The notes beneath the pieces were generated by a model. The model was not told where the DNA came from and searched no databases. It saw only the letters and a list, made by a program, of their open reading frames with translations. A stretch of 64,000 nucleotides of DNA from the NCBI RefSeq assembly GCF_004102025.1, contig NZ_CP025228.1:2790001-2854000 (forward strand), in the 5' to 3' direction. Within the stretch, counting starts at the first letter, position 1; each line of letters opens with the position of its first letter. This document shows positions 1,205 to 60,404 of the stretch, one piece after another. This DNA is from Actinomyces qiguomingii (GTDB taxonomy: Bacteria > Actinomycetota > Actinomycetes > Actinomycetales > Actinomycetaceae). A program made the translations under genes and the position numbers.

Positions 1205-1289
1205 ACCGAACTCGATGGTCATTTCGACCGAACTCGGTGGTTATTTCGACCGAACTCGGTGGTTATTTCTACCGAACTCGATGGTAGCG
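1205..1289 (-). repeat. 22-bp period intergenic array A, four units
   Basis: The core ACCGAACTCG (reverse complement of CGAGTTCGGT) begins at 1205, 1227, 1249 and 1271, exactly 22 bp apart. The linkers are similar (ATGGTCATTTCG, GTGGTTATTTCG). The array fills the gap between two convergent genes. The same core and period recur at four other places in this window. Function unknown; a repeated binding site or a mobile non-coding repeat are both possible. Confidence 0.9.
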
Positions 1290-1297
1290 AGGGCGCC

Positions 1298-2272
1298 TCA
1301 GTAGGCCTGGCAGGCCGGGCACCAGAACAGGCGTCGCCCGCTGATCACCCGCTCCGCGATCCGGGTGCCGCAGCGCAGGCAGGGACGGAACGCGCGGTGG
1401 TAGACATACCAGCGCCCGGCCTCCGGATCGTCTTCGGGCAGTGGTTCGGGTACATCCGTGGCCTCCACCGTGGTGATGAAACCGGTGGCGACCCCGTACT
1501 CCATGAGCGACACCAGGTCATCCCAAATCTCCCGCAGCCGCCTGGCACTGATCCGGTTGCCCGACCGGAACGGGGACAGGCCGGCCCGGAACAGGACCTC
1601 AGCCCGGAAGATGTTGCCGGCTCCGGCCAGAATCGACTGGTCCAACAGCAATTCTCCGACCGTCCGCCTGCGTCGGCGCACGCCAGCAATGAATTCCTCA
1701 GGATCGGCGTCAGAGCGCAGCGGATCGGGTCCCAGGCGGCGGCGCACCGCCTCCACGCCGTCGGCGTCCAACAGCTCGCATACCGTCGGTCCCGTCAGAT
1801 CGGCCACCCCATGCTCCCCGGCCAGGCGCAGCCGTACAGCGCCGCGGGGCTCGGGGGGTCGCCAGTCGGCGGGCGCAACAGGCGCGGGCTCCTCACCGCT
1901 CAGTCCGGACAGCGCCGAGCCGCCACCACGGGCCAGAGCCTGTTCTCCGCGCTCCCCGAGCCTGCGGCGAGGCGCCCCGATGGCGTGTGGTGCGGTGAAA
2001 CAGGCGTCACCGTCGAAGGTCCAGGAACCGTACAGGCCCAGATGAACGCGCAGCCAGGTGACATCCGAGGAATCCACGGGAACGTCTGATGCCGGCGCGA
2101 ATGGGAGGAGCAGCTGCTTGCCGTGAGCCTGCCCGCCCAGGAGGATCTGGCCGTTCAAACGAGCGGCCCCAGCGGAGAAACGTCCCTGCGGGGACGAGAC
2201 AACCAGGCGCTGGCCGCCGTAGAGTTCATTCAGGGCATTGGCTAGGCGGTGGACGGTGTGACCTTCAGGCAT
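1298..2272 (-). CDS. nei: Fpg/Nei-family DNA glycosylase (endonuclease VIII type)
   Basis: A 324-residue DNA glycosylase/AP lyase for base excision repair of oxidised bases. The N terminus reads MPEGHTVHR: Pro2 is the family's Schiff-base nucleophile and Glu3 the catalytic acid. The His after Gly fits the Nei-type branch of actinobacteria (Nei2-like) rather than Fpg. A helix-two-turn-helix segment is visible in the second half (LLLDQSILAGAGNIFRAE), and the C terminus carries a four-Cys zinc finger (CLRCG ... WCPAC). It is followed on the same strand by no other gene; rpiB lies 78 bp upstream, the same pairing as nei and rpiB in Mycobacterium tuberculosis (Rv2464c/Rv2465c). Substrate preference cannot be read from the sequence. 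Confidence 0.93.
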   Translation of the reverse strand: MPEGHTVHRLANALNELYGGQRLVVSSPQGRFSAGAARLNGQILLGGQAHGKQLLLPFAPASDVPVDSSDVTWLRVHLGLYGSWTFDGDACFTAPHAIGAPRRRLGERGEQALARGGGSALSGLSGEEPAPVAPADWRPPEPRGAVRLRLAGEHGVADLTGPTVCELLDADGVEAVRRRLGPDPLRSDADPEEFIAGVRRRRRTVGELLLDQSILAGAGNIFRAEVLFRAGLSPFRSGNRISARRLREIWDDLVSLMEYGVATGFITTVEATDVPEPLPEDDPEAGRWYVYHRAFRPCLRCGTRIAERVISGRRLFWCPACQAY

Positions 2273-2809: not shown

Positions 2810-2895
2810 GGATGAATTGTGCCTCACGCGAACAGGTCCAGGGCACCGCGCCCGCGGATACGGGCATATGTGCACCCTCGGGCTAGCGTTGCGCC

Positions 2896-5028
2896 ATGAC
2901 CGATCCGAGCGACACCTCCTCCTCCGCCAGCGCCGACGACGCACCGGCGTCGACGGACTCGCACGCCGCCGTACTGGCAGGCGTCTACGAGACCGCGGCG
3001 GCGGACTCCTCCGTGCGCCCCCAGGACGACCTGTTCCGCCATGTCAACGGGAGCTGGTTGGCTACCACGACGATCCCTGCCGACCGTCCCGCCACCGGTT
3101 CCTTCCTGGTGCTGCGCGACGCAGCAGAGGCGGCCTGCAGGGACATCCTCCAGGAGTTGGCGCAAGCACCGCGCGCTGGCGTGCCCACCACCCCGACGGC
3201 CAAGCTCGGCGCACTGTACGCCGCCTTCCTGGACGAGGAGCGGATCGAGGCGCTCGGAGCCGAGCCGCTCGCCCCCGAACTGGAGCCCGTGCTGGCGGCG
3301 GCGGACAAGGAGGCTCTGGCGCGCGCCCTGGGCGCCCACCTGGCCGCCGGCTTCACCGGACCGGTGGACATCGCCGTCGAGGTGGACCTGAACGATCCGG
3401 ACCACTACACCACCTGGATGGCGCAGTCGGGCCTGGGTCTGCCCGATGAGTCCTACTATCGACAGCAGGACCAGGCGGAGATCCGACAGGCCTACGTGGC
3501 CCATGTGGGGCGCATGCTCGAATTAGCGGGCCTGCCGGACCGCCTGGGGACGGACGCGGACGCACTTGCCGGACGCATCATGGCGGTGGAGACGGCACTC
3601 GCCGAGGGACACTGGGATCGGGTCGCCTGCCGCGATATTGAGAAGATCAACAACCCCACCGCCTGGGAGGACCTGGAAAAGTCCGCTCCCCTCTTCCCCT
3701 GGCAGGCCTGGTACGACGGCGTGGTCGAAGCGGCGCAGGCCGCCGGCGAGCAGCCGGGATCACTGCTGAAGGAGACTATCGTCCAGCAGCCCGATTATCT
3801 GCCGCACCTGGCGCAGGTATGGCACCGGACTCCTCTGGCGGATCTGCGCGCCTGGGCGGCCTGGCATCTGGTACACGGTCGCGCGACACTGCTTTCGCGC
3901 GCCTTCGTGGAGGAGAACTTCGACTTCTACTCCCACACGCTCCAGGGCGTGGACGAGTTGCGGGCCCGCTGGAAGCGGGGTGTAGCCCTGATCGAGGGCA
4001 CGCTGGGCGAGGCACTGGGCGAGCTGTACGTGGCCCGACACTTCCCGCCCGCCCACAAGGCGAGCATGGAACGTCTGGTTGCCCGTCTGATCGAGGCCTA
4101 CCGCCAGTCGATCTCCTCCCTGGAGTGGATGAGCCCGACCACCCGCGAACGCGCCCTGGAGAAGCTGTCCCTATTCACCCCGAAGATCGGCTACCCGAGC
4201 ACATGGCGCGACTACAGTGCCGTCACGGTCACGCCCGGCGACGTGGTCGGCTCGGTGCGCTCAGCAGAGGCCTTCGAGTTGGCCCGCGCCCTGCGTAAGC
4301 TGAGCCGCCCGGTTGACCGGGAGGAGTGGCACATGACGCCGCAGACGGTCAACGCCTACTACAACCCGACCATGAACGAGATCGTCTTCCCGGCGGCGAT
4401 CCTGCAGCCGCCATTCTTCGACCCGGACGCCGACGACGCCGTCAACTACGCCGGCATCGGCGCCGTGATCGGGCACGAAATTGGCCATGGCTTCGATGAC
4501 CAGGGCTCCACCTTCGACGGACACGGCAAGGTGACCGACTGGTGGACCGAGGCGGACCGGGAGGCCTTTGAGGCCCGCACTCGCGCACTGATCGCCCAGT
4601 ACGACGCCTACCGCCCGGCGGCGTTGGTAGCACGTGCCGAGGCAGATGGCCAGGAGGCGGACACGGCGCCCCATGTCAACGGGGAGCTCACGATTGGGGA
4701 GAACATCGGCGACCTGGGCGGAGTGGGGATCGCACTGAAGGCCTATGCACTGGCCCTGGCGGATGTCGGCATCGACTCTGTGGCCGGGGCCCCGGTGATC
4801 GATGGACTCACCGGAGCGGAGCGCTTCTTCTACTCATGGGCCCGCATCTGGCGCAGCAAGAGCCGGGACGACTACGCCGAACTGCTGTTGACGATCGACC
4901 CGCACTCCCCCGCCGAGTTCCGGTGCAACGGGATCGTGCGCAACGTGGATGCCTTCTATGAGACCTTCGGGGTTACAAAGGGCGATGCACTATGGCTCGA
5001 ACCACAGGAGCGCGTGACCATCTGGTGA
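2896..5028 (+). CDS. M13-family zinc metallopeptidase (PepO/neprilysin type)
   Basis: A 710-residue metallopeptidase of the neprilysin (M13) family. The zinc site HEIGH is at residues 527-531, followed by GFDDQGS, and the third ligand is in ENIGDLGG near residue 602, the expected spacing. The N-terminal M13 domain begins near residue 45 (DDLFRHVNGSWL) and the C terminus carries the family's arginine/asparagine motif (FRCNGIVRNVDAFYETF) and a terminal Trp. There is no signal peptide or transmembrane helix, unlike eukaryotic relatives, so it is predicted to be cytoplasmic, as for many actinobacterial PepO proteins. It starts 86 bp from the divergent rpiB. Substrates are probably oligopeptides. 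Confidence 0.94.
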   Translation: MTDPSDTSSSASADDAPASTDSHAAVLAGVYETAAADSSVRPQDDLFRHVNGSWLATTTIPADRPATGSFLVLRDAAEAACRDILQELAQAPRAGVPTTPTAKLGALYAAFLDEERIEALGAEPLAPELEPVLAAADKEALARALGAHLAAGFTGPVDIAVEVDLNDPDHYTTWMAQSGLGLPDESYYRQQDQAEIRQAYVAHVGRMLELAGLPDRLGTDADALAGRIMAVETALAEGHWDRVACRDIEKINNPTAWEDLEKSAPLFPWQAWYDGVVEAAQAAGEQPGSLLKETIVQQPDYLPHLAQVWHRTPLADLRAWAAWHLVHGRATLLSRAFVEENFDFYSHTLQGVDELRARWKRGVALIEGTLGEALGELYVARHFPPAHKASMERLVARLIEAYRQSISSLEWMSPTTRERALEKLSLFTPKIGYPSTWRDYSAVTVTPGDVVGSVRSAEAFELARALRKLSRPVDREEWHMTPQTVNAYYNPTMNEIVFPAAILQPPFFDPDADDAVNYAGIGAVIGHEIGHGFDDQGSTFDGHGKVTDWWTEADREAFEARTRALIAQYDAYRPAALVARAEADGQEADTAPHVNGELTIGENIGDLGGVGIALKAYALALADVGIDSVAGAPVIDGLTGAERFFYSWARIWRSKSRDDYAELLLTIDPHSPAEFRCNGIVRNVDAFYETFGVTKGDALWLEPQERVTIW

Positions 5029-18723: not shown

Positions 18724-19807
18724 GTTCGGTCTCCGGCGTGGTCGCCTTTTCCATCCGACCGGAGCCGGACTGCGCCTGCTGGTCCTCGCCCCGCGGCGTT
18801 TCAGTGCCCTCGGGCCGTTTGGTGCCGCGCCTCAGGGCCGGCCAGTTCTTCCCGACCTGATCGAAGGTGACCGCAATCACGACCACCAGGCCCGTTACGA
18901 TCTGTTCGTAGAAGCTCGGCACGCTCAGTAGCACCAGACCATTGGTCAGTGCCCCAAGGATCAGGGCGCCGATAATCGTTCCGCCGATGGAGCCCTCGCC
19001 GCCCATGAGGTTGGCGCCGCCGATCACCGAGGACGCGATCGCCGTCATCTGGTAGGGGGCACCGGCCTCGGACTGTGCCGCCGAGATGCGGGCCACCACA
19101 ACCATGCCTCCCAGGCCCGACAGGGTGCCCGCCAGTACGTACACCCAGATCTTGACCCGAGCCACGTTCACCCCTGACAGCCAGGCCGTCTCCTCGCTGC
19201 CTCCCGTGGCAATGACGTTCTGGCCGAACACCGTACGCCGCAGCAGGAACCAGCACAGGACGGCACAAATGACTACCGCCACAACCGAGGTCGGCACTCC
19301 CATCACCCGGGAGTTCAGGATCATCACGAAGGGTTTGGGGATGTTGTACACGGGCAGGCCGTCGGTGACCACATATGCCAGGCCCTGGAACACCGACATG
19401 GTTCCGAGCGTCGCTATGAAGGGCGGCAGACGTACAAGCGCCACCAGGACCCCGTTGACCAGACCGCACAGGGCACCAACCGCCAGACCGATCAGGAATC
19501 CCAGATACGGATTCACTCCCTGGTTGACCATCAGCGCCGCACTGACCATGCCTGACAGGCTCGCGATCGAGCCGACCGAAAGGTCGATGCCGCCGGTTAT
19601 GATCACGAAGGTCATGCCGAGCCCGATCAGGGCGTTGACGCAGGCCGAGATGGCGACGTCCCGCAGATTGTCCAGCCCCAGGAATCTGGGATTCAGCACG
19701 CCGAACCCCAGGTAGATAACCAGGGCGGCGATCGCGATGGTGAAGGTCTGGGCGTTGATGCGCGAGCGCCACGCCGCAACTTTGCTTGTCATGTCATTCA
19801 TGTCCAT
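18716..19807 (-). CDS. ABC sugar transporter permease, RbsC/XylH type
   Basis: A 363-residue inner-membrane permease of the ribose/xylose/AI-2 ABC importer class (BPD_transp_2). About nine to ten hydrophobic segments are visible. Family landmarks are VIITGGIDLSVGSIASLSGM and the cytoplasmic coupling segment GGMVVVARISAAQ ... AIASSVIGGANLMGG. The C-terminal 45 residues are a hydrophilic, charged tail (RRGTKRPEGTETP), longer than usual. Several ATG codons stand in frame at the N terminus (19807, 19801, 19792), so the exact start is uncertain. One permease gene for this operon suggests a homodimer. It lies between the ATPase and the amidohydrolase. Confidence 0.9.
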   Translation of the reverse strand: MDMNDMTSKVAAWRSRINAQTFTIAIAALVIYLGFGVLNPRFLGLDNLRDVAISACVNALIGLGMTFVIITGGIDLSVGSIASLSGMVSAALMVNQGVNPYLGFLIGLAVGALCGLVNGVLVALVRLPPFIATLGTMSVFQGLAYVVTDGLPVYNIPKPFVMILNSRVMGVPTSVVAVVICAVLCWFLLRRTVFGQNVIATGGSEETAWLSGVNVARVKIWVYVLAGTLSGLGGMVVVARISAAQSEAGAPYQMTAIASSVIGGANLMGGEGSIGGTIIGALILGALTNGLVLLSVPSFYEQIVTGLVVVIAVTFDQVGKNWPALRRGTKRPEGTETPRGEDQQAQSGSGRMEKATTPETEHA

Positions 19808-31769: not shown

Positions 31770-33113
31770 ATGCGTTCCCGCGCCGTACCACGCCTCCTGG
31801 CGCTGATCGCTTCGGGGGTACTTGCCCTGGCGCTGATCGTTCCCGCCGCGTTCTTCAGCCCGGCCAGTGCCGATGAAGGCACGTGCACCGCAACATCGGA
31901 AACCCCCGACATCACGCTTCTCAAGAAGGATGAGCCGGTGTCCGCCGACAACGCGGTGGTCGCCTGGGAAATGCTGAAGCTTCAGTTCACCCTTGAGCTC
32001 AACGACGGTCACTGTGCCGGTCAGACCTATGAGATCAGCACCCCGGAAAAGCTGCGCTTCGACTCCGGGACCACCTGGAACCTGGACACCGAGGACGGCC
32101 AAACCGCCGCCACCATGACCTACGTGGCCGACGAGGACGGCTCGAAGGGCCGTCTGGTCATCACCCTGACCGACTACGTCGAATCCCACCACGACATCTC
32201 CCTGAACGGCTGGGTCGATACCCGACTGACCAGCGCCATCACGCCCTCCACTACCGAGCTTCTCACCTTCAGCACCAACGGCAGCGAGAAGATCCTCGAG
32301 GTTCCGGTGGGCGAGTGCGTCGGTAACTGCACCGAGATGCCGAACTATCTGGCGAAGTTCGGCTCCGCCCCTGCCCCTAACGCACAGGGCGTAAGCACCG
32401 GCAATGTGACGCTCCAGACCCCCACCATCACCCAGGAGATGGCCGCCGGCGCCGACTCCGTGACGTTGGGGTGGACCGATGAGCTCACCTCCCCCAACCA
32501 GGCCTTCACCTGCGAAGCCTCCGCCTACTCATACACCGGCCGCAACGTATGGGGAGACCCCACCGGCGGCACACCCACACAGGTGACCGTGACCAGCTGC
32601 GAGGACAACTCCATCAGCGGGACCGTAGTGATTCCCGTAGGTCAGTTCGCCCGGATCATCCTGCCGATGAACTTCACTGGCGCCGGCCCCTGGACCGACC
32701 GCGCTACGCTCATCATCGGTAGTCGGGACATTGAGAGCGAGGCGAAAGTGATCCTGCGTGACGGCGGCGGTTCCGCAACCGGAAGGGTCCCGACGCCCTC
32801 TACTCCGAAGGAGTCCCCGGCCCCAAGCCAGACCCCGACTCCGGCACAGCCGACCCCTAGCGAGTCTGCGACCCCGAGTGAGTCGCCCTCCGCGGCCGCT
32901 CCTTCGGAATCCGCAGCGCCGAGCCAGCCCTCTCAGGCCTCGGAATCGCCCAGTGCGGTCGCGAAGGCTACCACGCCCGCAGCTAAGTCCTCGGCCACGC
33001 GACCGCCCGCGCTGGCGCGTACCGGCTCCAACGGTCTGGCGCTGGTACTCGGTGCAGGTGCTCTGCTGATCCTCGGTGGGGCCGCGGTCTACCGCGCCCG
33101 CGCTCGCAAGTGA
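31770..33113 (+). CDS. Cell-wall-anchored surface protein with LARTG sorting signal
   Basis: A 447-residue exported protein. The ATG at 31770 follows AAGGAG. The signal peptide is long (residues 1-35, ending FFSPASA|DEG). The body from 36 to about 345 is beta-rich with few recognisable motifs; four or more Cys residues (CTATS, GHCAGQ, GECVGNCTEM) may form disulfides. A Pro/Ser/Thr-rich stalk of about 75 residues (TPKESPAPSQTPTPAQPTP) spans the wall, then LARTG, a hydrophobic helix and YRARARK. It is a probable surface adhesin or structural protein, sorted by a class E-type sortase not in the window. A perfect hairpin follows 46 bp after the stop. I do not recognise the body domain. Confidence 0.82.
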   Translation: MRSRAVPRLLALIASGVLALALIVPAAFFSPASADEGTCTATSETPDITLLKKDEPVSADNAVVAWEMLKLQFTLELNDGHCAGQTYEISTPEKLRFDSGTTWNLDTEDGQTAATMTYVADEDGSKGRLVITLTDYVESHHDISLNGWVDTRLTSAITPSTTELLTFSTNGSEKILEVPVGECVGNCTEMPNYLAKFGSAPAPNAQGVSTGNVTLQTPTITQEMAAGADSVTLGWTDELTSPNQAFTCEASAYSYTGRNVWGDPTGGTPTQVTVTSCEDNSISGTVVIPVGQFARIILPMNFTGAGPWTDRATLIIGSRDIESEAKVILRDGGGSATGRVPTPSTPKESPAPSQTPTPAQPTPSESATPSESPSAAAPSESAAPSQPSQASESPSAVAKATTPAAKSSATRPPALARTGSNGLALVLGAGALLILGGAAVYRARARK

Positions 33114-33210: not shown

Positions 33211-33252
33211 CGGCTCTTCCGGTCCGGCTCTTCCGGTCCGGCTCTTCCAGTC
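33211..33252. repeat. 14-bp tandem repeat, three units
   Basis: The unit CGGCTCTTCCGGTC occurs at 33211, 33225 and 33239 (the third with one change). It lies directly behind the terminator hairpin in non-coding DNA. Confidence 0.9.
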
Positions 33253-33272
33253 CGGCCTGAAGCATCTTCGCC

Positions 33273-33335
33273 GAGTTCGGTCGTTATCACCATCGAGTTC
33301 GGTAGATATGACGATCGAGTTCGGTTGGTGGGGTT
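33273..33335 (+). repeat. 22-bp period intergenic array B, three units
   Basis: GAGTTCGGT begins at 33273, 33295 and 33317, exactly 22 bp apart, with linkers CGTTATCACCATC and AGATATGACGATC. A G-rich tract (33327-33351) follows. The array and tract recur inverted at 59480-59556. Confidence 0.9.
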
Positions 33336-33655
33336 GGCGGGGCGGGGGGAGTGTCCGGATTCGGCACGAACGATGCTCCCCCGCCCGACGTCGTCTATCA
33401 GGTCCGTATGGTTTCAACGAGTTTCAGGGCGGCTGCTGGGAGGGGCAGCATGCTCATGCCGATTCTGGACACTTTTGGCTCCCAGGTGCCGGCCTACCGT
33501 CCTGGTGCGGCCAGCAGGTCAGGGCGTGTGGTTGTAGACCAGGTCCTTCCTTGTCCGATCGGCTGGGACTGGACCGTCTGGCTGCCGATGGACCGTCTAG
33601 CTGCGGTTGGACTCCCTGGCTGCCGTTAGACCCCCTGGCTGCCGTTGGACTGCCT

Positions 33656-33775
33656 GGAACGCACTCTCAGACGGTCCAACCGCGAGAACGCGGTCCATGC
33701 GCAGGAGCCCGGTCCAACCGCAGTAACGCGGTCCAAGTACGCGGCCGGCAGCGGCCCGGGCCCACACACACCACC
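33656..33775 (+). repeat. GGTCCAACCGC repeat block, inverted copy at 59 kb
   Basis: Units of the form CGGTCCAACCGCAG-AACG occur three to four times. The block from AACGCACTCTCAGACGGTCC to the GGCAGC/GGCCCG end matches the reverse complement of 59317-59415 over about 100 bp, with one extra unit here. The interval 33336-33655 also contains CAGTCGG/CTGCCG-type short repeats and GATTCTGGACACTT (33461-33474), which recurs near 35131 and 35296. Confidence 0.8.
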
Positions 33776-33832
33776 AACACCTCAAACCGGAAGAGCCGTG
33801 CTGGGGCCGGGGCCGGGGTCGGTAGGTTTAAA

Positions 33833-34342: not shown

Positions 34343-34739
34343 GTCAGGAAGCACCTCGCACCTCCAGGTGCATTGAGACGAGCTTCGGCGGTTTGTTTGC
34401 AGATATTTTTGGTGGTCAGGAAGCACCTCGCACCTCCAGGTGCATTGAGACTAACGTCGACTCGGCATATGAGATTGCTGGAACGGGTCAGGAAGCACCT
34501 CGCACCTCCAGGTGCATTGAGACCTCGGTAATAGACCCGTCACCATTGCGGTCGAGTCAGGAAGCACCTCGCACCTCCAGGTGCATTGAGACCTACGGTG
34601 ACGTTGGGAGAACGAGGAGCGATCCTGTGTCAGGAAGCACCTCGCACTTCCAGGTGCATTGAGACTAGGAGGAGACAAGGTCGAGTTCACGGACAGCGTT
34701 GTGTCAGGAAGCACCTCGCACCTCCAGGTGCATTGAGAC
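34343..34739 (+). CRISPR. CRISPR array, six 37-bp repeats and five spacers
   Basis: Repeats start at 34343, 34415, 34487, 34556, 34629 and 34703. Each is 37 bp, beginning GTCAGGAAGCACCTCGC and ending GTGCATTGAGAC; five are identical and the fifth has one C-to-T change at 34648. The repeat contains the palindrome GCACCTCCAGGTGC, giving a crRNA stem. The 3' end ATTGAGAC resembles the ATTGAAAC handle of many type I and III systems. Spacers are 35, 35, 32, 36 and 37 bp and all different. No cas gene lies within this window (29 kb or more on either side), so the array is isolated or served in trans. Confidence 0.97.
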
Positions 34740-34756: not shown

Positions 34757-34779
34757 CAGCGGCGTTGCTCCCCATCGTT

Positions 34780-34836
34780 GAGTTCGGCTGTTATAACCAT
34801 CGAGGTCGGTCGACGTTACTGCCGAGTTCGGTTCTG
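34780..34836 (+). repeat. 22-bp period intergenic array C, three degenerate units
   Basis: GAGTTCGGC (34780), GAGGTCGGT (34802) and GAGTTCGGT (34824) keep the exact 22-bp period although two cores carry a substitution. It lies 40 bp after the CRISPR array; array B lies on the other side. Confidence 0.8.
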
Positions 34837-54500: not shown

Positions 54501-55088
54501 GGCGCGCTGCCAGATGGGGACCTTGAGCTCGGCTCCAAGTCGGGCCAGTTCATCCGCGTCGATGCCGAGCTCCCCCGCGCGGGCCAACAGATTGCGCAGC
54601 TCTGTGCGGAAGGCGCGCGACTCCACGGCCTCGGCGGGCAGATCCCCCCAAGTGGTGCCGCGCAGTAGCCGCGCCAGGGCGGCGTCCTCCTCCGCCCCGG
54701 CGAGCAGCACGGGGGCGGGCAACGGGTCGGCTCTTTGGGTCAGGGAGGTCTGCAGGATGGTCAGCGCGAGAGATGCGGGGGTGCGCACCCGAACCGTGCC
54801 CGAGCGGGCGCCGGCGAGCTTAAGCAGATGAGAGGCGCGCTCGCGCAGGCGATCCGCACGGACACGTGTGGGGGCGAGTAGGACGGCGTCCTTGCCGCGG
54901 CCGGTCACCGCCTCGATCAGAAGGCGCAGCGCTGTGGTGGTCTTGCCAGTTCCGGGGGCTCCGAGGATCACCAGGTTCGTACCGTCCGCGGCACGGGCGA
55001 GCACCCGAGCGGCGGAGGCGTCCGGCGCGGGAAGCGGTGGCTGCACGAGCGGAGGCAGAAGGCGGGGGGCGCCGGCGGAACTGGTCAT
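51579..55088 (-). CDS. UvrD/RecB-like helicase-nuclease with Cys cluster, AdnA-like
   Basis: A 1169-residue partner protein. Motor motifs: LGAPGTGKTTTALRLL near residue 40, VVIVDDYQDCTAATARML (Asp-Tyr-Gln-Asp variant of the DExx box), ALGDPDAAVEVFRGG and AISRANRRLVVTAA. The motifs are weaker than in the AdnB-like protein. The C-terminal nuclease domain shows VRGRIDRLEFL and RVIDFKTGGGRP. Four Cys (TNCPLRWFL, then SRCSFRASC) match the iron-sulfur cluster that frames the nuclease in AdnA/AddB. With the downstream AdnB-like protein it should form a heterodimer for resecting broken DNA. It ends by overlapping that gene by 4 bp and starts 232 bp from divergent DUF3107. Confidence 0.87.
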   Translation of the reverse strand: MTSSAGAPRLLPPLVQPPLPAPDASAARVLARAADGTNLVILGAPGTGKTTTALRLLIEAVTGRGKDAVLLAPTRVRADRLRERASHLLKLAGARSGTVRVRTPASLALTILQTSLTQRADPLPAPVLLAGAEEDAALARLLRGTTWGDLPAEAVESRAFRTELRNLLARAGELGIDADELARLGAELKVPIWQRAAELLRTWDAQGRPSAANRGTVREMDTARLQDRAREALSTWDDDGVLVPRPVPDVVIVDDYQDCTAATARMLVALTVPDAAGHRAQIIALGDPDAAVEVFRGGNPSLLNAAEDRSGLAAERLTLDAVHRGTSALARVWAAQADRIPITGTATHRHPQPPEYVKHINAADAAAPGGVEVLIASGPLQQSAQIARILRSEHVHRNTSWDRMAVIVRSAGTARAVGRELRHHGVPLASSTPAVLLRAEPAAAAIINVCRAALGGALGEATSPPERSTALDLLTSPLIGLTNLDLRRLRRRLRADRSAQGSSDDNLLGLLAEPAEAAAVARELADEPLAEQAARIERASRVIAALRRVMDAAEGAGADRVDVESLLWAAWQASDCAEAWRATALTPHTSRTAALMAEAAEHDLDVVTVLFKRAEVWAERHPGGKATAFLDELVAEILPSDTVAPQGIRPPGVAVLTPAAAAGAQWEVVVVAGVERETWPDLRLRDGLTRSGLLVDAVTGRLPLAADGVHQAAQDPAEARSQVRGDERRMFLSAISRANRRLVVTAALDADTAPSPFLLEVAATAEQRIFNDDGKLEVAADVGDLTLPGLVGQLRAAAVAGRLQGADAEACLRGRQAERLLAVLARDGVSAADPANWAGLGLPTSTTPLVTPGREIRISPSDVDAITNCPLRWFLQRNGGGTGAGNAQRVGVVVHGLAERAEREGLRGEALRQALEDVMPELGYPDTWLGDLDRKRVRDMIDRLDAYLHSGTAPALVERTVDVRLDLPVPEDGKQQSVVAGGGESGARADGEGPAGTGAATVAGGPMTAGERIPVRVRGRIDRLEFLDGVLPDSSADGVLPAGQGQRVRVIDFKTGGGRPNGASHHAQLATYRMALAAVGYQVDGAGLAMLGMAPRKTKDRGVYMAPDGLVLAPSPDPDTGEEWDVELLARAALDVSGPTLLARHNKDCSRCSFRASCPVDPAGRRTVA

Positions 55089-55320
55089 GGGCCCATCTCA
55101 TCACGTGGGTCAGACATGAACTGAACACCCTAAACGTCTTCTGAGCCCCGGATCGGTACGAGCCCTGCCCTCCGTGGTGTCCGCGCGGCGCGAAATGCCC
55201 GGGATTCCCGCGGTTCAGACGAACAGATACGGCCGTAAGGCCCATAGGATCAGGGTAGACACCCCACCGCGGTCGTTCACCCACTAGCGGGCGGCCCGGA
55301 TCCTGATTGAAGGAGCACCC

Positions 55321-55536
55321 ATGCAGGTCACCATTGGAATCAAGCACTCCACGCGCGAGCTCTCGGTGGAGACCTCCGCCTCCCAGGAGGAGATCCTCGC
55401 CGCCGTCGCCGATGCCGCCACTTCCTCGGTCACCCTGACGGACGACAAGGGCCGTAAGGTGTTCATCCCTGCGGGCTCGCTCGCCTACATCGAAATCGGG
55501 GAGTCCTCCCCCCGCCGCGTCGGCTTCGGCATCTGA
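55321..55536 (+). CDS. DUF3107 family protein
   Basis: A 71-residue protein (MQVTIGIKHSTRELSVETSA) of the DUF3107 family, found throughout actinobacteria and known as the TB9.4 antigen region protein Rv3208A in M. tuberculosis. The sequence is soluble, with a short beta-strand/alpha-helix pattern and a conserved ending ESSPRRVGFGI. AAGGAG precedes the ATG. Function unknown. It lies divergently next to the AdnA-like gene, as it does near adnAB in mycobacteria. Confidence 0.93.
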   Translation: MQVTIGIKHSTRELSVETSASQEEILAAVADAATSSVTLTDDKGRKVFIPAGSLAYIEIGESSPRRVGFGI

Positions 55537-55591
55537 CCCGCCGCCTCCTCTCCCCCTCCGCACCCCTCCTCTCCCCCTCCCCCCTCCCGTC

Positions 55592-55622
55592 GAGTTCGGT
55601 CGATATAACCGTCGAGTTCGGT
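55592..55622 (+). repeat. 22-bp period intergenic array D, two units
   Basis: GAGTTCGGT at 55592 and 55614, 22 bp apart, with linker CGATATAACCGTC. A C-rich run precedes it and a G/T-rich tract (55624-55700) follows, before the lipoprotein gene. No further gene is visible in 55537-55774. Confidence 0.85.
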
Positions 55623-55774
55623 TGTTGTGGCCGGGGTGCGATGGGTTTTCCACAGGGTGTTGGTTGGGGGTGGCGGTTGTGGTGGGTGTGTGGGTACGGT
55701 TGCCTGGCGTCGGCGCTTTGGCTGGCGCGCCTGTTAGTCCCGTTAGGGTCCTCACCGAGGAGGCCGTGCCCGTT

Positions 55775-56449
55775 ATGTCTACCGTCCCCTTACTCCATTC
55801 GATGCCGCATCGGCGCCGGGCTGCGGTCGGGTTCGCTCGTCTGGCGGCCTTGTCCGTGGTGGTTGCCTGGCTGGCACTGGGTGGGGGTTGTTCGCGTGGA
55901 AGCGCCACCAGTGGTTTCAGTCCCACCTGGACCCCATCAGCGACTGTCAGTGCTAGTGCCGCGCCCACGCTGTCGCCGGAACAGGCCGCGGCCAGAGCCA
56001 CCGCCCTGGCCATGGAGCCGCCTGATCCCTACACCCCACAGTTCACCCCCGAAGGCGCCATCACCGCAGCCACATACTTCCTCAACCTCTACCCATACGT
56101 CTACGCCACCGGCGACATAGATGCTTTCGAGAAAATGAGTGACGACAACTGCGAATTCTGCGATAGCGTCATTAACAACGCCACCGAACTACACGATGCA
56201 GGTGGCTGGATCGACCTATGGGAGCCGGACGTCACACCCCTGGCGTGGTGGACAGACCAAGAAGACCCCAACCGCTACGTAGTACGTGCCCAAGTAACAT
56301 CCCAGGAACGTGATCAGTATCCAGGAGATGGCCAGCCTCCCCTGCACATTACGCGAACGGAAGACATCTTACTGGTCCAATTGTATTGGAGTGGCCACAA
56401 TTGGGCAATAGAGATAGTTGATCTAGAAGAGGGAGGCGAAGTTGAATGA
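55775..56449 (+). CDS. DUF6318-like lipoprotein
   Basis: A 224-residue exported protein, with start at ATG 55775 (MSTVPLLHSMPH; GAGGAGG lies 11 bases upstream, and GTG 55766 is an alternative). A hydrophobic segment ends in LALGGGC, a weak lipobox, followed by a Ser/Thr/Pro linker. The folded part has TPEGAITAATYFLNLYPYVYATGDIDAFEKMSDDNCEFC, the hallmark of the DUF6318 family common in Actinomyces. Two Cys in NCEFC could form a disulfide. Function unknown. It overlaps the next gene by 4 bp (ATGA), so both were translated together before the IS element broke the second. Confidence 0.72.
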   Translation: MSTVPLLHSMPHRRRAAVGFARLAALSVVVAWLALGGGCSRGSATSGFSPTWTPSATVSASAAPTLSPEQAAARATALAMEPPDPYTPQFTPEGAITAATYFLNLYPYVYATGDIDAFEKMSDDNCEFCDSVINNATELHDAGGWIDLWEPDVTPLAWWTDQEDPNRYVVRAQVTSQERDQYPGDGQPPLHITRTEDILLVQLYWSGHNWAIEIVDLEEGGEVE

Positions 56450-59495: not shown

Positions 59496-59556
59496 ACCGA
59501 ACTCGATCGTCATATCGACCGAACTCGTTGGTAATATCGACCGAACTCGGCGAATA
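59496..59556 (-). repeat. 22-bp period intergenic array E, three units
   Basis: ACCGAACTCG begins at 59496, 59518 and 59540, exactly 22 bp apart, linkers ATCGTCATATCG and TTGGTAATATCG. A CACCCCACCAGCCCCACC tract (G-rich on the other strand) adjoins it, as at array B. The remaining gap up to 59654 holds the TauE gene's leader and promoter; I see no gene in it. Confidence 0.9.
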
Positions 59557-59654: not shown

Positions 59655-60404
59655 ATGTCGCCCGTAATCACCTACGCCCTACTGTTCCTCGCCGGCGTTG
59701 TCGCCGGCATCGTCGGCTACCTGGTGGGGATGGCCTCGCTCGTCTCCTACCCGGCGATGGTGGCCCTGGGCGTGCCCCCGGTGGTCGCCAACGCATCCAA
59801 CACGGTCAGCCTGATTCCCGGCGGCATCGGCTCGTTGATCACCTCCTGGGACCGGCTGAGGCAGATCCGCTACTACCCGCTGCTCCCGCAGGTACTCATC
59901 GCCGTCGTCGGCGGGCTCGTGGGCGGGACGCTGCTGCTGGTGGCGCCACCGGGAGTGTTCGAGGCCATCGTGCCCTGGCTCGTACTGTTGGCGACCGTGA
60001 TGGTCGCCCTCAGTCCGTGGCTGCGGCAAGGCGCCGCCAACTACCGCCTGGCCGCCCCCGCCTTCCTGACCCTAATGGCCGCGATCATGGTTTACAGCGG
60101 CTACTTCGGCGCCGGCGCGGGGGTGCTCTTCTTCGCCCTGTGTACCCTGGGCACACCCATGAACACGCATGCCGCCATTGTCATGAAGACACCCATGCTG
60201 ACCCTGTCCAACTTCTCCGCCGCCGTGCTGTTCATCGTGCAGGACAGGGTCGACTGGGGCGCGGCAATCGCCGTCGGCATCGGCTCCTTCGCCGGCGGTT
60301 ACGTGGCGCCCCTGATTCAGCGACTCATTCCCGAGCGGGTCATTCATGCCGCCGTCGTGGTCGGCGGGCTGGTACTTACCGCCTGGTTACTGTTCGGCCG
60401 GTGA
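59655..60404 (+). CDS. TauE/SafE-family sulfite/organosulfonate exporter-like membrane protein
   Basis: A 249-residue membrane protein with seven to eight helices. The two half-repeats of the TauE/SafE family are seen as GVVAGIVGYLVGMASLVSYPAMVALGVPPVVANASNTVSL and GYFGAGAGVLFFALCTLGTPMNTHAAIVMKTPM. It probably exports small anions such as sulfite or sulfoacetate, though many homologues are uncharacterised. The gene is monocistronic. It starts at the ATG at 59655. Confidence 0.88.
   Translation: MSPVITYALLFLAGVVAGIVGYLVGMASLVSYPAMVALGVPPVVANASNTVSLIPGGIGSLITSWDRLRQIRYYPLLPQVLIAVVGGLVGGTLLLVAPPGVFEAIVPWLVLLATVMVALSPWLRQGAANYRLAAPAFLTLMAAIMVYSGYFGAGAGVLFFALCTLGTPMNTHAAIVMKTPMLTLSNFSAAVLFIVQDRVDWGAAIAVGIGSFAGGYVAPLIQRLIPERVIHAAVVVGGLVLTAWLLFGR

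Follow-up and report, generated by a model that had tools for sequence, protein, structure and literature searches.

The window, by which we mean the whole 64-kb stretch of DNA analyzed (positions 2790001 to 2854000 of the 3.99-Mb, single-contig genome of Actinomyces qiguomingii), contains five arrays of a short core repeated at a period of 22 bp. The arrays had been located in an earlier note on this DNA, and a scan of the window with the pair pattern found all five at their places; their extent, however, had to be corrected, as a C preceding the core GAGTTCGGT belongs to it (CGAGTTCGGT). The spans that include this base are listed in Table 1. With up to three mismatches, the pattern GAGTTCGGT-N13-GAGTTCGGT matches the window 10 times compared to 0.04 expected matches, which rules out a chance origin of these arrays.

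Table 1. Positions of the 22-bp arrays and of associated features within the window
Feature	Position	Strand	Remarks
Array, 4 units	1205..1280	-	Simple class, without terminal repeats
Larger mosaic repeat enclosing the 33272 array	33212..33797	+	Ends read by eye
Array, 3 units	33272..33325	+	Mosaic class, terminal repeat upstream
CRISPR array, 6 repeats, ahead of the 34779 array	34343..34739	+	
Array, 3 units	34779..34832	+	39 bp past the last repeat of the CRISPR array, orientation as the repeats
Array, 2 units	55591..55622	+	Gap 55088-56012, behind a C/T-rich tract
Array, 3 units	59496..59549	-	Mosaic class

The array at 1205 lies approximately 18 bp after the stop codon of a gene for an Fpg/Nei-type DNA glycosylase (1298-2272, minus strand) and is oriented with this gene. 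The array at 33272 is located approximately 159 bp past the stop of a plus-strand gene encoding a Big_8-domain protein (31770-33113), and the start (GGCTCTTCCGG) and end (CTCAAACCGGAAGAGCC) of the mosaic repeat enclosing it are both similar to the ISL3-type terminal repeats of the genome. In the array behind the CRISPR repeats, cores 1 and 2 are imperfect (GAGTTCGGC and GAGGTCGGT), and a small gene call just upstream of the 55591 array is doubtful. The array at 59496 runs against the general polarity described below: it faces away from a TauE-family gene (59655-60404), whose start it precedes by approximately 105 bp. ISL3-like terminal repeats accompany the arrays at 33272 and 59496; the other three are without them. 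No Rfam family matched the window at the gathering threshold. Further dispersed repeats, composed of AAGTGTCCAGAATCGGCACGAAC-like words in both orientations plus a hairpin around GGACCGTCTGAGAGTGCGTTTCAGGCGGTCC, adjoin arrays in the window (at 33348, 33455, 35120, and 35290) and at two other loci (L038, 13680-16450; L034, 2440-3150).

The exact 22-bp period reported in the earlier note was confirmed on a larger scale. In 1.523 Mb of the A. qiguomingii genome, comprising the window and further stretches, some of which were picked for known arrays, the 245 exact GAGTTCGGT cores include 217 with a neighbor at exactly 22 bp. The same test gave no neighbors at offsets of 11, 20, 21, 24, and 33 bp and two at 23 bp, by which other periods were rejected; the varied periods that the note had named as an argument against a specific element were thus not found. 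When one mismatch was allowed in four species, the neighbor distances below 40 bp were 22 bp in 531 cases, 21 bp in 6, and 23 bp in none, with 25 other distances scattered from 9 to 39 bp. Spacings alternating between 22 and 23 bp, i.e., a 45-bp double unit, were seen only at one locus (L267, approximately 18994-19160).

An array consists of a leader, n repetitions of CGAGNTCGGT plus a 12-bp linker, and a final core with some linker-like bases after it, and comprises 2 to 10 units. The unit is an asymmetric site, CGAG(T/A/G)TCGGT, with the asymmetry lying beyond CGA-NN-TCG; position 5 is mostly T in A. qiguomingii (84%) and A in three other species (94 to 99%). Directly ahead of the first core, a pyrimidine-rich leader gives the array one marked side. 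It is clearest in A. israelii (about CCCTTTCGY, with 89 to 93% pyrimidine at each of the positions -9 to -4), and over all arrays the pyrimidine content of the 10 nt is 70%, compared to 51% in control 3′ regions. The core is common to species with quite different linkers: these read about (A/C)GATAT(A/G)ACC(A/G)(T/C) in A. qiguomingii and about YSNN(T/C)TCCGNNY in the israelii group, so that the clades differ in this part of the unit. The linkers had been described as varying, which they do, but they do not vary freely, as those of one species are drawn from a limited pool.

For the conservation of the core, circularity was avoided by scoring only cores that lay halfway between two others, both exact and 44 bp apart, and in 341 of 358 such triplets the middle core was perfect. 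Intact middle cores next to changing linkers indicate that core and spacing are either constrained or copied more faithfully than the linkers. Neighboring linkers agreed hardly more than linkers from different arrays in A. massiliensis (0.62 versus 0.61) and A. israelii (0.66 versus 0.64), and were more alike in A. qiguomingii (0.84 versus 0.68) and A. gerencseriae (0.76 versus 0.69). Identical neighboring linkers made up 14 to 29% in the four species, compared to 1 to 4% by chance, and this excess implies that some tandem duplication occurs too. The earlier view that the arrays are not the product of simple tandem duplication is therefore borne out by the conserved core and the drifting linkers, with the qualification that duplication also contributes.

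Across the A. qiguomingii genome, 343 exact core pairs were found (187 forward and 156 reverse), rising to 493 (268 and 225) with up to two mismatches, and the reversed control gave none in either case. Occurrence at chance level, which the note had named as the other argument against a specific element, can hence be dismissed. The density of arrays by genome section is uneven, ranging from 1.2 to 8.6 per 100 kb without a clear trend in stretches that were not chosen for arrays. Exact pairs were present in 6 of 119 relatives, own genome counted, and all six belong to the genus Actinomyces. The search of Actinomyces genomes proposed in the note, performed with the A. qiguomingii core and up to two mismatches and thus liable to miss other cores, confirmed recurrence within the genus: 18 of 49 genomes matched, 12 of them with at least nine pairs. 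These are A. massiliensis (589 pairs), A. qiguomingii (493), A. israelii (294), A. gerencseriae (257), G029 (78), G030 (23), G038 (18), G045 (18), G047 (13), G013 (12), G011 (10), and A. haliotis (9). The other six matching genomes had one pair each, the reversed control yielded one match in each of three genomes, and 37 of the 49 genomes had at most one pair by this pattern.

Outside the genus, a three-unit pattern with up to three mismatches detected one weak match, with three mismatches, in 395 sampled genomes of the phylum; i.e., 2 of 396 genomes matched when A. qiguomingii is included, the second by a local repeat, and the reversed control gave one match in a third genome. In a scan of named genomes, 78 of the 80 loci among the matches listed were from Actinomyces and two from Streptomyces. 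The Streptomyces loci (L183, 6540-6700; L191, 4680-4740) each hold a single tandem repeat whose unit is 22 bp long and whose core (CGAGGTCGGT) is similar; as local repeats with very similar linkers, they are probably unrelated. A viral source was rejected, with no exact pairs in viral contigs, and plasmid sequences contained no match for the 1205 array, the sole array tried. Overall, this family of arrays is nearly restricted to part of a single genus.

For the analysis of genomic context, genes were predicted with a home-made codon-bias caller, so that single gene assignments can be wrong; arrays were called if they had at least two cores with an average of at most one mismatch, identical arrays with identical 25-bp flanks were counted once, and part of the loci had been picked because arrays were known there. 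Only 3 of 286 unique arrays were located inside a called gene, in agreement with the intergenic location noted before, and 19 lacked a gene on one side; both groups are left out of the orientation counts. Among the 264 arrays with genes on both sides, 184 were alone in their gap: 75 and 28 between genes of the same direction, 55 in convergent gaps, and 26 in divergent gaps. The lone arrays between same-direction genes showed a clear polarity, 75 running with transcription and 28 against it (p = 4e-6; 26:9 in A. qiguomingii and 49:19 in the other species), a ratio that drops to 88 versus 41 if paired arrays are included. In convergent gaps, the leader was nearer to its own stop codon in 42 cases and the tail in 13 (p = 1e-4; medians, 31 and 68 bp). 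The median distance of the leader was 36 bp behind the stop codon for lone arrays running with transcription (n = 61) and 129 bp from the start codon for those running against it (n = 21); typically, the leader lies 30 to 36 bp behind a stop codon. In gaps of at least 100 bp, 89 unique arrays were counted for 163 convergent gaps, 108 for 523 same-direction gaps, and 38 for 226 divergent gaps, in loci that overlap and were partly chosen for arrays and with gaps that were not made unique.

The same arrangement was found behind tRNA genes: among 31 tRNAs in overlapping loci of at least 6 kb, all three unique arrays within 200 bp were downstream and in the same sense, at distances of 4, 62, and 149 bp. 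An orientation set by replication was rejected, as 49 of 88 arrays were on the leading strand compared to a base rate of 0.596 for genes; for this count, position 1 was taken as the origin, and gene strand bias put the terminus at 1.86 Mb. Thus, the arrays have a polar placement behind transcription units, and a minority points the other way.

All three CRISPR arrays found in the analyzed stretches of A. qiguomingii are followed, 25 to 39 bp past the last repeat, by a 22-bp array that runs in their own orientation. These are small arrays with the repeat GTCAGGAAGCACCTCGCACCTCCAGGTGCATTGAGAC (window, 34343-34739; L050, 14691-15091; L265, 3253-3505), and in all three a short stem-loop-like stretch separates the CRISPR repeats from the 22-bp array. 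By eye, L050 and L265 have the stretch between repeats and array in common, and L265 and the window the downstream sequence; because of this common flanking sequence, the three cases are not independent. CRISPR arrays combine near-identical repeats with unique spacers of roughly 26 to 50 bp, and the 22-bp arrays, with 12-bp linkers from a limited pool per species, were rejected as CRISPR arrays themselves.

The folding of the transcribed arrays was compared in 12 arrays per species. The mean z-score of the sense strand was -2.5 in A. qiguomingii, -1.4 in A. gerencseriae, -0.5 in A. massiliensis, and +0.4 in A. israelii; in the first two species, the sense strand folded better than the antisense strand (-1.4 and -0.3, respectively). 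With this spread, RNA hairpins were rejected as a general property, and since folding is not general, action as DNA is favored; in A. qiguomingii, whose sense strand folds better than shuffled sequence, the arrays may nevertheless have a role as RNA. Hairpins were not enriched upstream of the arrays (median, -11.4 versus -11.0 kcal/mol; p = 0.36; 94 arrays and 598 control regions), and no T run was seen in the downstream profiles. Intrinsic terminators, as well as insertion behind intrinsic-terminator hairpins, were rejected on these grounds.

Orthologous gaps were compared starting from 28 A. gerencseriae gaps for which one or both relatives had an ortholog. In 20 gaps shared with A. israelii, an array was present in both species in 1, only in A. 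gerencseriae in 5, only in A. israelii in 1, and in neither in 13; in 25 gaps shared with A. massiliensis, the numbers were 4 for both, 4 for A. gerencseriae only, and 17 for neither. By the threshold of the array call, remnants are scored as absent in this comparison, e.g., one in A. israelii. In one gap, arrays with different linkers follow the same gene in three species, the one in A. gerencseriae being degenerate. At another site, a five-unit array of A. gerencseriae with identical linkers occupies a gap measuring just 25 and 22 bp in two relatives. No target duplication was seen at this clean empty site; at one site, GCCCGC was read by eye on both flanks and could be a short target duplication. 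Of the 49 genus genomes, 48 were found to have the DNA glycosylase gene that lies ahead of the 1205 array, and among 30 loci compared, including our own, A. gerencseriae has an array of three units and A. israelii a decayed one, with none visible in 27 of the 29 other loci, one of which is masked. Behind the same gene, three species (L241, approximately 2850-3150; L076; L090) have a conserved noncoding stretch, GTCAGGGTTTTGCCAGGTG...GGTGAATCTCCAGGGTGG with variants, which might represent a further repeat or a small RNA. The arrays turn over quickly between species, and their frequent absence at orthologous sites implies that they are not essential terminators.

Neighboring arrays at most 3 kb apart are mostly convergent (19, compared to 1 divergent and 5 same-direction pairs). 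Between one convergent gene pair, two 2-unit arrays of A. massiliensis form a perfect 34-bp inverted repeat by eye, A. israelii has a remnant, and A. gerencseriae has two arrays 647 bp apart. Between the members of a pair, the DNA can consist of other repeats, IS remnants, or unique DNA, and longer intervals can include ordinary genes; no gene common to the interiors was found among the few convergent pairs inspected. In A. massiliensis, a separate repeat family with the inverted repeat GTCGGGCTCCCATGTGC...GCACATGGGAGCCCGAC lies between paired arrays (L093, 6025-6634 and 10224-10708; L094, 10687-11285), and in L038 (14500-15870) seemingly decayed IS3-type transposase genes, recognized by eye, are situated between two convergent array-bearing elements. 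In 723 kb of A. qiguomingii, a CTCTTCCGGTT-like word was found within 70 bp upstream of 19 of 58 arrays; of the 52 sites with this word (at most one mismatch), 16 are within 70 bp of an array and 36 are without one. CTCTTCCGGTT resembles the ends of ten ISL3 copies (GGCTCTTCGCGTTTAGGGG...) and of a decayed ISL3 copy (GGCTCTTCCGGTTTAGGGG), the family being assigned by PF01610. The ten copies (L051 to L060) are approximately 1448 bp long with intact frames and equal scores, nine of them have exact 8-bp target duplications, and they appear to have been active recently. A distance of 9 bp separates the copy in L051 from a 22-bp array, and none of the ten contains an array. No ISL3-type repeat stands out in the array leaders of three other species, and no target duplication was seen by eye at the one element inspected for it (L034, 2318-3213).

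No earlier description of such arrays was found in the open-access literature, subscription papers being mostly outside the scope of the search. Membership in the REP/RAYT elements was rejected: the Y1 transposase domain (PF01797, E ≤ 0.001) was detected in 0 of 49 genus genomes and in 5 of 14 control genomes, and its absence from these genomes sets the arrays apart from these elements. They share with REP, BIME, and REPIN sequences (for REPINs, see PMC3116915) that they are short, abundant, extragenic, and near gene 3′ ends, but differ in consisting of 2 to 10 direct units at exactly 22 bp, in having no single hairpin unit, and in their strong transcription polarity. As to the inverted doublets of REP sequences, the picture is mixed: pairs within 3 kb are mostly convergent and thus resemble them, but 184 of the 264 arrays with genes on both sides are alone in their gap. 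With an asymmetric core and the fold z-scores given above, the palindromic hairpin unit of REP sequences is lacking. The terminal repeats upstream of some arrays and the ten ISL3 copies in the genome recall ISL3-derived miniature elements, which would have ISL3-type terminal inverted repeats and an 8-bp target duplication; the simple-class arrays and the leaders of other species are without ISL3-like repeats, and the ISL3 copies contain no array. The yeast Reb1 and mouse TTF-I terminators consist of repeated polar sites behind genes with a T-rich element just before them. The arrays resemble these eukaryotic systems in polarity, position behind genes, repetition, and the preceding pyrimidine stretch, but are bacterial; we know of no dedicated protein-roadblock array of this kind in bacteria. 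The actinobacterial protein BldC binds direct repeats of varying number in a head-to-tail, directional, and cooperative manner; according to PMC5859096, a protomer occupies a 9-bp AATT-containing site and the known targets are promoters, whereas the arrays have a GC-rich 10-bp core at 22 bp and are mostly behind genes. Roadblock termination, orientation dependent in the case of Rap1, is covered in a review (PMC10310618). BldC and roadblock terminators serve here as analogies for head-to-tail binding and a polar block, respectively. The abundant, quadruplex-forming intergenic heptamer arrays of Xanthomonas and Nostoc are built of short G-rich units (PMC4692102), in contrast to the 22-bp unit with fixed core and changing linkers described here.

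Our tentative preference is to regard the arrays as polar, phased protein-binding sites at transcript 3′ ends that may act as roadblock-type terminators or insulators. The observations that go beyond the earlier note are the leader, the transcription polarity, the position behind stop codons, tRNAs, and CRISPR arrays, the convergent pairs, and the partial link to ISL3. In the proposed mechanism, a candidate Actinomyces DNA-binding protein would bind the units in a head-to-tail manner, approximately on one face of the DNA, and the resulting polar protein stretch would stall RNA polymerase and release it just behind the gene; convergent pairs might guard two converging genes, with the DNA between them tolerating inserted repeats. 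The one-face binding suggested earlier fits the arrays as an inference from their sequence, but not with exact phasing, since 22 bp corresponds to 2.1 turns of 10.5 bp and the face drifts by approximately 34 degrees per unit. In favor of this mechanism are the strict period, the core that is conserved next to changing linkers and across species, the pyrimidine-rich leader, the polarity with transcription but not with replication, the arrays behind tRNAs and CRISPR arrays, and the lack of general RNA folding. The 28 lone arrays running against transcription, the array at 59496 being one of this kind in the window, and the 26 in divergent gaps speak against a role in termination, as do the lower ratio with paired arrays included, the frequent absence at orthologous sites, the 37 genus genomes with at most one pair, and the limited linker pool with its excess of identical neighbors. 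In a bolder version, which we consider rather doubtful, the arrays would be the bacterial equivalent of terminators of the polymerase-I type. Numerous genes of certain Actinomyces, along with a few of their tRNAs and CRISPR arrays, would then end in a pyrimidine tract and, after it, an array in helical phase that a dedicated candidate protein coats in a polar manner to stop RNA polymerase without a hairpin or U-tract, and the arrays would spread and turn over as mobile repeats do.

Nearly as likely as termination is that the arrays are a selfish, non-autonomous dispersed repeat, analogous to REP/BIME sequences or MITEs and devoid of a cellular role, in which core and period would serve recognition by a putative mobilizing enzyme and both the location and the polarity would result from insertion preference and selection against harm to promoters. 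The patchy presence among species and sites, the five-unit array of A. gerencseriae in a gap that is almost empty in its relatives, the predominance of convergent neighbors, like inverted doublets, the ISL3-like repeat near 19 of 58 arrays together with recurring larger mosaics, the possible target duplication at one site, and the limited linker pool with its excess of identical neighbors, as expected of copying, all point in this direction. It is harder to reconcile with a Y1 transposase domain in none of the 49 genus genomes, with leaders in three other species in which no terminal repeat stands out, with the 36 of 52 ISL3-like sites that have no array, with the clean empty site showing no target duplication, and with core and spacing that stay intact while linkers change. 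Terminator and selfish repeat can hold together, as a mobile repeat may be tolerated or useful as a terminator.

Less probable is a 3′-UTR RNA element, in which folding of the transcribed repeats, or their binding to a factor such as Rho, a nuclease, or an RNA-binding protein, would set the 3′ end or stability of the mRNA. Transcription polarity, the site behind stop codons, the C/T-rich leader, and the sense-strand folding in A. qiguomingii and A. gerencseriae would suit such an element, but the z-scores of A. israelii and A. massiliensis, the lack of hairpin enrichment upstream and of Rfam matches in the window, and the strict 22-bp period, more natural for DNA, argue against it. BIMEs include gyrase sites, and by analogy the arrays might be supercoiling or nucleoid sites, for gyrase or a nucleoid protein, between converging genes. 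Convergent gaps do hold the most arrays per gap, but given the asymmetric core and the clear polarity between same-direction genes we regard this as improbable. Simple tandem duplication of 22-bp units, the cores being alike by chance, could account for the arrays with identical linkers and for the excess of identical neighbors; confronted with hundreds of core pairs in each of several species at a fixed phase and with variable linkers, it is scarcely credible.

If the arrays are protein-bound terminators, they would represent a further roadblock route for ending bacterial transcripts, which a mobile repeat could install behind numerous genes. As selfish elements, they would form a dispersed repeat family that combines helical phasing with transcription polarity and is mobilized by a putative enzyme. 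On either reading, array DNA offers a bait for a direct search for the bound protein.
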